Made by a program: the position numbers and the translations under genes
Part shown: positions 18,224 to 57,220 of the stretch, piece after piece
How positions within the stretch are numbered: position 1 is the stretch's first letter
Layout of the letters: every line of letters begins with the position of its first letter
Notes under the pieces: generated by a model
What the model was told of the DNA's origin: nothing
What the model saw: the letters and a program-made list of their open reading frames with translations, nothing else
Database searches by the model: none
From: Paracoccaceae bacterium
Lineage (GTDB): Bacteria; Pseudomonadota; Alphaproteobacteria; Rhodobacterales; Rhodobacteraceae
NCBI GenBank assembly: GCA_022843025.1
Contig: JALHOL010000006.1
Span: forward strand, 186,001-250,000
DNA: 64,000 nt
Reading direction: 5' to 3'

Positions 18224-18250
18224 AACCGGATTTGGAACGCGCGGCGAAGA

Positions 18251-18359
18251 CGATTTCTGACGCAGAAATCGTTGCGGAATTTGACGCAAATTCCGCGTGC
18301 CACCCCGGACGCCCGATTTCTGCGTCAGAAATCGGCGCGAAATCTGCGCCAGATTTCGC
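18251..18359. repeat. Array of four stop-codon-linked hairpins (REP-like)
   Basis: Four perfect hairpins: 18251-18271 (CGATTTCTG, loop ACG), 18274-18296 (GCGGAATTTG, loop ACG), 18313-18335 (CCGATTTCTG, loop CGT) and 18337-18359 (GCGAAATCTG, loop CGC). The TGACGCA centres of the left pair are the reverse complement of the TGCGTCA centre of the third. The last hairpin overlaps the first base of the gamma carbonic anhydrase stop codon. Related arrays lie at 23844-23923, 27400-27466 and 56783-56932. Confidence 0.85.
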
Positions 18360-18877
18360 TACAGCGCCCGCAGTCCCGCGCCAAAGCGCCGCGCATTGGC
18401 GCGGTATCCGGCGGCGGATGCCAGCAGCCGCGCGCGCGCGGCATCGTCCAACATGCGCACCACCTTGCCGGGGCTGCCCATGACCAGCGACCCGTCGGGA
18501 ATCTCCTTGCCTTCGGTGATCAGCGCGCAGGCCCCGATCAGGCAGCCCTTGCCGATCTTTGCCCCGTTCAGGATGGTGGCCCCCATCCCGATCAGCGTGC
18601 CATCCCCGATGATGCAGCCATGCAGCATGGCCTTGTGGCCGATGGTGCAATCCGCACCGATCACCAGCGGCGATCCCATATCGGTGTGCAGCACGCAGTT
18701 TTCCTGCACGTTGGACCCCTGCCCGACCCAGATTTCCTCATTATCGCCGCGCAGCGTGGCCCCGAACCAGACCGAGGCCCCCGCCTCCAACACCACCTTG
18801 CCAATGATGTTCGCATCCGGCGCGACCCAGGCATCAGCGGCGATGTCAGGCGCGATCCCATCCAGCGAATAGATCAT
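18359..18877 (-). CDS. Gamma-class carbonic anhydrase family protein
   Basis: 172 residues forming a left-handed beta-helix of hexapeptide repeats. The three metal-binding histidines of the family are placed in [10 protein letters not shown] and [14 protein letters not shown]. The family includes gamma carbonic anhydrases and YrdA/PaaY-like proteins; activity cannot be judged from sequence alone. Its ATG overlaps the gmk stop codon by four bases, so it is coupled to yicC-gmk. The TAG stop is followed directly by a hairpin array. Confidence 0.9.
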
Positions 18878-23843: not shown

Positions 23844-23923
23844 GAATTTTCTGCGAAAATTCTGCTCTGTTTTGCGTTGGGCGCGAACGGACGTTCGCGC
23901 CCCGATTTTTCGCAGAAAAATCG
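23844..23923. repeat. Paired hairpins filling the convergent gap (REP-like)
   Basis: Left hairpin GAATTTTC-TGC-GAAAATTC (23844-23862) and right hairpin CGATTTTTC-GCA-GAAAAATCG (23903-23923) are in inverted orientation. Between them is a perfect 10-bp hairpin GGGCGCGAAC-GGAC-GTTCGCGCCC (23879-23902). The element fills nearly the whole gap between two convergent genes and ends one base before the sugar dehydrogenase stop codon. Confidence 0.85.
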
Positions 23924-56252: not shown

Positions 56253-56320
56253 TTGCAGACTTGCCCGACTCCCCCCAAGGGCGCAAAGTGACTGTGTCGC
56301 GCATCTCGGGGGGGAACACG

Positions 56321-56782
56321 GTGACAGGGCCCAGCATCCAGACCTGCCTCTGGTTCGACGATCAGGCCGAAGAGGCCGCGTCGTGCTATGTCACGCTGCT
56401 GCCGGGGTCCAAGATCATCCAGACCTTTCCCCGCCGCGGGGCCGAGGGGGTCTTCCTCGTCCATCTCTCGCTCCTTGGTCACCGCTACAGCTTCCTCAAT
56501 GGCGGTGCGCATTACCGCCTCACCCCCGCCGCCTCGATCGAAGTGCATCTCGATACTCAGTCCGAGGTCGATCTCCTGTGGCACGCGCTGTTGCAGGGCG
56601 GCACCGCCCAGCGCTGCGGCTGGCTGGTGGATCGCTTTGGCGTCAGCTGGCAAATCATTCCACGCAGCCTGATCCGCCTGATGCAGACAGGCGACGCCGC
56701 ACAGGCCGCCCGCGTGACCGAAGCGATGATGGATATGGTCAAACTCGACGGCCCCGCGCTCGAGGCCGCCGCGCGCGGCTAG
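56321..56782 (+). CDS. VOC family protein (PhnB-like)
   Basis: About 153 residues with the start SIQTCLWFDDQAEEAASCYV of the PhnB / 3-demethylubiquinone-9-methyltransferase-like glyoxalase fold family. Function is unknown. I place the start at a GTG (56321), preceded by a G-rich site seven bases upstream; GTG at 56288 or an earlier frame opening are alternatives. The TAG stop is followed with no gap by a REP-like hairpin. It follows eda by 68 bp on the same strand. Confidence 0.72.
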   Translation: MTGPSIQTCLWFDDQAEEAASCYVTLLPGSKIIQTFPRRGAEGVFLVHLSLLGHRYSFLNGGAHYRLTPAASIEVHLDTQSEVDLLWHALLQGGTAQRCGWLVDRFGVSWQIIPRSLIRLMQTGDAAQAARVTEAMMDMVKLDGPALEAAARG

Positions 56783-56932
56783 GCGATTTTTGACGCAAAA
56801 ATCGCGCAAAATTCTGACACAGAATTTTGTGCACCTAGACCGATGCGATCCGAAAAACCTTCTCTCTCTGAACGACTGACGCTATCCGAAATCTGCGTCA
56901 GATTTCGGCGCGATTTTTGTGTCAAAAATCGC
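56783..56932. repeat. Hairpin pairs abutting stop codons on both sides (REP-like)
   Basis: Four perfect 10-bp hairpins: 56783-56805 (GCGATTTTTG, loop ACG), 56807-56829 (CAAAATTCTG, loop ACA), 56886-56908 (CCGAAATCTG, loop CGT) and 56910-56932 (GCGATTTTTG, loop TGT). The left outer hairpin starts at the first base after the VOC stop codon and the right outer one ends at the base before the 95-aa gene's stop. The middle (56830-56885) has no gene. Confidence 0.9.
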
Positions 56933-57220
56933 TTACGCGCCGCCGACCCGCGCCGCGCGCCCGCCGCGCCGCTTGGGTGCGTCGGGCGTCATCAGCCCGT
57001 CCTTCAGCACCGCCGACATCGGATGATCCGGCGCGCCCAGCGCATATTCTGCCATCAGGGTGCGCACGGCATCCTTGATGGGCGCATCCACCGGCAGGCT
57101 CAGCGCCCAATCAACAAAGATCGACCGGCATTCCCCCGCCGTGATCCCGTCAATCCGATAGCTTTCCCGCACCAACCCCTTGGGGTCCGCCTCACTCAAC
57201 AGCACTGCCCGTCTCCCCAT
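56933..57220 (-). CDS. Conserved-looking 95-aa protein of unknown function, downstream of glnE
   Basis: 95 residues: SEADPKGLVRESYRIDGITA near the start, ECRSIFVDWALSLP, and a basic tail (KRRGGRAARVGGA). I recall similar unnamed proteins in this family but no name or function. The ATG overlaps the end of glnE by 29 bp, implying co-translation with the nitrogen-regulation enzyme. A REP-like hairpin starts at its TAA stop. Confidence 0.6.
   Translation of the reverse strand: MGRRAVLLSEADPKGLVRESYRIDGITAGECRSIFVDWALSLPVDAPIKDAVRTLMAEYALGAPDHPMSAVLKDGLMTPDAPKRRGGRAARVGGA

Follow-up and report, generated by a model that had tools for sequence, protein, structure and literature searches.

Inverted hairpin doublets at stop codons form a candidate REP-like family centred on a single genus

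We describe here a genomic module that consists of two hairpins 24 nt apart, a spacer of 15–59 nt and two further hairpins in inverted orientation, present at about 30 places in the genome studied and belonging to a family found mainly in its genus. In our reading these modules make up a new family, REP-like if the term is taken broadly and novel in its architecture. They lie at the ends of genes far more often than expected from random placement, and their stems keep pairing while the sequence changes. The reading of their role that we tentatively favour, at a little short of an even chance, is that they act as an RNA barrier at 3' ends, usable from either side.

The window, by which we mean the whole 64-kb stretch of DNA analysed, contains two such modules. 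The first fills the gap between a gene for a VOC-type protein (Pfam 3-dmu-9_3-mt; 56261–56782, plus strand, TAG at 56780–56782) and a convergent gene of 95 aa that has no Pfam match (56933–57220, minus strand) and overlaps the glnE-like gene upstream of it. Hairpin H1 (56783–56805, plus strand, loop ACG) has the sequence GCGATTTTTG-ACG-CAAAAATCGC and begins at the first base past the TAG, with 0 nt between, and H2 (56807–56829, plus strand, loop ACA, which is ACG in strain G041) follows at a loop-to-loop distance of 24 nt. Beyond a 56-nt spacer (56830–56885) lie H3 (56886–56908, minus strand, loop ACG on that strand) and H4 (56910–56932, minus strand, loop ACA on that strand), the latter reading GCGATTTTTG-TGT-CAAAAATCGC on the forward strand and adjoining directly, again at 0 nt, the TTA at 56933–56935 that is the minus-strand TAA of the 95-aa gene. 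Both inner hairpins, H2 and H3, are perfect. Seen from the gene on the same side, every loop reads ACG or ACA, so the block as a whole consists of one doublet, the 56-nt spacer and a second doublet in the opposite orientation. The second module has hairpins at 18250–18272 and 18274–18296 on the plus strand and at 18313–18335 and 18337–18359 on the minus strand, the last sharing its outermost base with the TAG of a hexapeptide (gamma-carbonic-anhydrase-like) gene at 18359–18877.

A sequence-only reading of this DNA had pointed to hairpins that start within 0–1 bases of four stop codons, and a recheck places all four as it claimed, including an outer hairpin pair with the same arms on the two sides of the convergent gap. 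That outer pair is real but is not the whole unit, since the two inner hairpins make it a four-hairpin module. The fourth site does lie one base from the TAG of the sugar dehydrogenase gene (GSDH, glucose/sorbosone dehydrogenase), but the hairpin there (23903–23923, minus strand, loop CTGCG in the sense of the gene) is a different, single-hairpin repeat outside the module family. Its sequence is CGATTTTT-CTGCG-AAAAATCG, with identical arms in all six copies examined (window 23903–23923; L204 3035; L205 3040; L206 2977; L207 3020; L208 2963), and all six are oriented with the gene whose stop is nearest, at distances of 1, 1, 5, 13, 14 and 36 nt. Other hairpin repeats were also seen in this genome. 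One family has adjacent pairs of 22–24-nt A+T-rich hairpins with TCGA or TCCA loops, 3–7 nt from a stop codon (L030 14977–15021; L032 1669–1712 and 7439–7483; L042 10488–10533), and hairpins whose stems are A+T-rich, many of these ending in TTTTC, also occur behind genes in arrays of two or three, about 33–71 nt apart (L033 971–1073; L043 15935–16037; L049 19914–19982; L050 7305–7409).

The window copy at 56783–56932 is predicted to fold with a large stem between H1 and H4 (minimum free energy −79.1, z −8.8), which arises because H1 and H4 share arms; as a conserved fold this stem was rejected, the outer arms being different in many other copies. A search of the window with the covariance models of Rfam 15 returned one tRNA only at gathering score and no match to the module, and a known RNA family was rejected on that basis.

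The hairpins are far more numerous than chance would provide. The pattern proposed from the first module, GCGATTTYTG-N3-CARAAATCGC, occurs five times in the window at up to three mismatches and in none of 100 shuffles. In an 864-kb sample of the genome, made up of the window and 40 stretches of 20 kb, we found 39 family hairpins against 3, 1 and 2 in Markov controls. Intergenic hairpins with a stem of 9 or longer numbered 122 in this sample, against 6, 5 and 1 in shuffled intergenic sequence. Over the whole genome, one arm type is present at 52 places at up to two mismatches, with the reversed pattern at none, and a broader pattern (loop ACR, four free stem bases) has 94 matches, every one of them within the stretches sampled or fetched for analysis, three of which (C1:142338, C5:273420 and C8:99419) have unpaired arms and are left out by the hairpin finder. 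The same broader pattern has at least 100 matches in G041, a genome of the same species.

The architecture is regular. Seventeen of the 34 clusters of at least two hairpins in this genome are complete, with two hairpins in one orientation followed by two in the other and a spacer of 15–59 nt, and most of the others resemble partial versions; over all fetched loci this order is seen in 64 unique clusters. The loop spacing of 24 nt holds for 45 of 45 same-orientation neighbours in this genome and for 191 of 204 over all fetched loci. Each doublet of a complete module comprises two A+T-rich hairpins of about 10 bp with the consensus GCG-N4-YTG-ACG-CAR-N4-CGC-G-N-CG-N4-YTG-ACG-CAR-N4-CG. Across 190 unique doublets the stems follow GCG-N4-YTG, a purine precedes the first stem in 87%, and the first and third loop bases are A (90%) and G (92%) respectively; the loops of 456 hairpins include 354 ACG, 49 GCG and 36 ACA. 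Arm sequences vary from copy to copy, with pairing and loop kept. A few clusters in other genomes are long runs, one with 14 hairpins and another with 7, which look like amplifications of the unit.

Thirty-two modules in this genome have both neighbouring genes called (by a codon-usage caller rather than an official annotation), with L191, which is the same locus as L042, and L032 and L194, each probably covered by a wrong gene call, left out. Twelve lie in convergent gaps, 16 in tandem gaps and 4 in divergent gaps. Placement is non-random, as had been claimed from the window: 25 of the 28 modules in convergent or tandem gaps are within 15 nt of a facing stop codon, whereas 10,000 random placements within the same gaps averaged 11.5 and reached 18 at most. 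The genome-wide enrichment at stop codons that the claim called for is likewise present in this genome, where 32 of 40 facing stops are at most 15 nt from the module and 17 at most 3 nt, and in tandem gaps 15 of 16 modules are closer to the upstream stop than to the downstream start. The 32 stops within 15 nt are enriched for TAG and TAA (16 of 32, against 209 of 767 sampled genes; p=0.008).

We compared the hexapeptide-gene gap across 17 genomes, omitting G001, in which a contig ends without the gene. The module is present in 12 of them, our own included, in some incompletely, and absent from five (G010, G016, G003, G009 and G015). Six of the 12 module-bearing genomes end the hexapeptide gene with a TAG just before the hairpin, and in the other six the stop is a TGA inside the hairpin (TGACGCA), so that the arm encodes the last residues. 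Stops of this kind were seen at L160, L161, L162, L168, L171 and L174 for the hexapeptide gene and at L156 for an aldolase gene, the 5' arm coding for the final residues EI or DF.

The other gap was anchored on the 95-aa gene because 9 of 16 relatives have no match to the VOC-type gene beside it; the neighbouring gene there often differs too among relatives. Modules lie behind the 95-aa gene in our own genome, G041, G006, G014, G013 and G007, one hairpin in G010, and remnants, judged by eye, in G017, G002 and G004; seven of the 17 genomes (G008, G005, G012, G003, G015, G016 and G009) have no module there. A module can thus occupy the same site in several species. Two orthologous blocks, each up to 20 kb long, were compared over 16 and 17 genomes, and clusters occur in these two gaps only, indicating that the sites are old and not freely changing. 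Our genome and G041 are about 2% apart in the DNA compared. All 10 sites compared (both window modules and eight G041 loci, these chosen among the G041 matches listed) hold hairpins or their decayed remains in both strains, with no presence/absence polymorphism at any of them, and the differences are single changes, decay, altered spacers and one 24-nt deletion that fuses two hairpins. The suggestion that the element is inserted at gene ends fits the clean empty sites in relatives, but no recent insertion is seen in the two strains compared.

All 19 genomes of the genus that were searched contain at least one match, G004 at one place only. At up to two mismatches a match is present in each of the 18 genus genomes covered by that search and in none of seven other genera of the family, and elsewhere in the class one of 16 has two, both unpaired. 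The commonest arm type was sought as an exact sequence in 295 genomes of the family and found in both members of the genus drawn and in 2 of the 293 others. The genome studied here probably belongs to a Tabrizicola-like genus. Of 87 stretches with exact copies, the 80 listed come from Tabrizicola, Rhodobacter amnigenus, R. ruber, R. kunshanensis (as filed) and Gemmobacter straminiformis, and also from metagenome bins, a few of them labelled Planktomarina, Silicimonas or Pseudorhodobacter; the Planktomarina- and Silicimonas-labelled bins have a single hairpin and the Pseudorhodobacter-labelled one a doublet.

A rival reading is a non-autonomous mobile or selfish palindrome with no benefit to the host, whose ends are the doublets. 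Such an element would bring a TGA of its own and would persist just past stop codons, where its insertion is least damaging. The inverted organisation with its variable spacer, the clean empty sites, the copies throughout the genome and the in-hairpin TGA that serves as the stop in 6 of 12 orthologs are all consistent with it. We nevertheless regard this explanation as unlikely. No Y1/RAYT-type transposase exceeds the cut-off in the 19 genus genomes (G008 has one sub-threshold match; 5 of 14 controls were positive), the two strains show no presence/absence difference at the 10 sites, and the arms differ from copy to copy, while one 21-base arm type has no exact copy in viral contigs and the window module no match in plasmids.

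The stems keep pairing while their sequence changes. In the alignment of the hexapeptide site from 12 genomes 96.7% of cells are paired, 17 of 36 stem pairs have changed on both sides (7.6 ± 1.7 in shuffles) and covariation is 0.288 against 0.106; when partners are shifted along the alignment, pairing falls to 53% at most. Over all copies, pairs 3–9 are Watson-Crick in 97.8–99.3%, percentages that are conditioned on a finder that tolerates a single mismatch and fixes pairs 1 and 2 in advance. Pairs 5 and 6 are split about evenly between A-T and T-A. A one-strand (RNA) signature in the mismatches was rejected, the imperfect pairs on the ACG strand showing no G-U excess (12 G.T and 15 C.A, p=0.70), and these pairs therefore lend no support to selection on RNA.

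Between our genome and G041 the differing positions number 7 of 522 in arms, 24 of 402 in spacers, 10 of 87 in loops and 128 of 5400 in flanks, and with G041 as the reference 9 of 520, 23 of 351, 9 of 87 and 104 of 4798. Arms differ less than spacers (p=0.00014); their conservation is not significantly higher than that of the gene-containing flanking DNA (p=0.17 and 0.63) in a test that relies on the hairpins detected in the reference strain, for which each strain served as reference in turn (9 and 8 modules). Loops, at small numbers, change about five times faster than flanks (p=0.00006), and 7 of the 11 loop changes listed are from ACG to ACA or the reverse. The fast change of the loops suggests hairpin formation in the DNA as well.

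This raises an explanation at the level of DNA, in which the A+T-rich palindromes are extruded as cruciforms or fold into hairpins on the lagging strand. Template switching during replication would then rewrite one arm from the other and so keep the arms perfect with no selection on RNA. Loops that change faster than flanks, mostly by ACG/ACA swaps, could be expected of an exposed single strand, and the lack of G-U bias and the near-complete Watson-Crick pairing at pairs 3–9, subject to the finder's rules, agree with it. It leaves the placement at stop codons unexplained, however, the loop numbers are small, and no pair has changed on both sides at once between the two strains (0 of 270); we give it a low probability. 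A variant that we rate as similarly improbable would have freely drifting palindromes, their pairing restored by extrusion and arm-to-arm copying, with the 24-nt doublet recognised by a protein or recombinase that places or maintains modules at stops without a RAYT.

The sequence-only reading had proposed a terminator cassette inserted at, or selected for, the ends of genes, with a T-rich arm that works in either direction. Its gene-end placement and two-sided use are borne out; as to termination itself, the counts of hairpins with T stretches depend on the stem G+C required. In such a bidirectional intrinsic terminator RNA polymerase would meet a hairpin and then the T-rich 5' arm of the next one, and in the window module a terminator-like pattern is indeed present both ways (56886–56908 on the plus strand, 56829–56807 on the minus strand). 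When stems of any G+C content are counted, 21 of 32 gene ends that face a module have a hairpin followed by at least four T in 10 nt, and the figures for control ends are 21 of 62 (convergent) and 26 of 162 (tandem); the T-rich arm can thus follow the stem of another hairpin, as had been proposed, and this count, in which A+T-rich stems are allowed, favours termination over the RNA barrier.

With stems of at least 55% G+C, however, module-facing ends (9 of 32) do not differ from convergent controls (18 of 62; tandem, 23 of 162), and the terminator-like total for the region is 9 against 6.5 ± 2.9 in shuffles. No constant T-tract follows either hairpin in the 190 unique doublets. T occupies the three bases past the outermost stem, read outward, in 33–43%, TTTT occurs in 15 of 65 outer arms, and 5 of 65 ends have at least five T among the 8 nt that follow that stem. 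The genome has, moreover, separate G+C-rich hairpins behind other genes, more often about 8 or 20 nt past the stop, and both the orthologous sites that are empty in several relatives and the four of 32 modules in divergent gaps speak against a cassette needed at gene ends. The terminator-cassette proposal is partly supported. Termination is possible, but is not the best fit, and as the explanation of the modules we think it improbable.

Inverted pairs of the uptake sequences of Neisseria and Haemophilus lie behind genes and double as terminators. The modules share with them the pairing of a repeated word with its inverted copy past the ends of genes, but the arms of the modules vary by copy, with pairing and loop kept. 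Like intrinsic terminators, they are hairpins just past genes, symmetric in convergent gaps, with a T-rich arm that can follow a stem, and they differ in having no constant T-tract, A+T-rich stems and a fixed multi-hairpin array.

The closest comparison is with REPs, which PMC3733652 describes as extragenic palindromes of 20–40 bp, mostly near the 3' ends of genes in convergent and tandem gaps (at less than 20 bp where convergent gaps were analysed in two species), often as inverted dimers 20–100 bp apart, with complementary changes in their stems and termini that supply stop codons. The modules share with REPs and BIMEs of the GTAG type their extragenic position at 3' ends, inverted pairs, complementary stem changes and stop-supplying termini: they are many-copy extragenic palindromes at gene 3' ends (25 of 28 eligible modules) and form inverted dimers or mosaics (17 of 34 clusters). 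They differ in their A+T-rich stems, 3-nt loop and doublets at a fixed 24 nt, and GTAG stands unpaired at the hairpin foot, as the tag of that super-family does, in only 9 of 190 doublets. A RAYT-driven REPIN was rejected, no Y1_Tnp having scored over the cut-off in the 19 genus genomes. The same paper describes CGTC REPs, mostly of Alphaproteobacteria, as head-to-head dimers with 8–9-bp stems and no dedicated transposase known. The modules are likewise alphaproteobacterial inverted dimers with short stems and no known transposase, but in them CGTC falls within the loop region (TGCGTCA) and the loop is of 3 nt rather than 4–5; a terminal unpaired CGTC tag occurs in 1 of 190 doublets, and the position table of these doublets shows no constant tail (mostly CCA in CGTC REPs). 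Among the literature matches listed, which cover titles and the starts of abstracts of open-licence papers, we found no published description of the module, and occurrences of the 9-mer CTGACGCAG among the matches listed appear, from titles and abstract starts, to be unrelated.

According to PMC12306157, E. coli REPs less than 16 nt from a stop codon lower translation, and REP hairpins protect mRNA. If the modules act as an RNA barrier in the same manner, each would form the 3' UTR in the transcript of the preceding gene and would fold into hairpins that, by analogy with the REPs of E. coli, may block 3'-to-5' exonucleases. A stem beginning no more than about 15 nt past the stop codon could also interfere with the terminating ribosome, as E. 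coli REPs do, and weak intrinsic termination may contribute without being the defining feature. Its inverted build presents the doublet in the same orientation to the gene on each side. The four divergent-gap modules count against this RNA barrier, because neither neighbour would place them in its 3' UTR, as do the absence of a G-U bias and the empty sites in several relatives.

The ideas about REPs, as RNA barrier, terminator, selfish DNA or DNA structure, have long been debated. The modules described here add a REP-like family without either of the described tags or a RAYT, and one that can be traced site by site within a single genus. Its shared sites and clean empty ones, its compensatory changes and a pair of strains about 2% apart are natural material with which these ideas may be separated, and the stop codon within the hairpin and the fast-changing loops are both directly testable.
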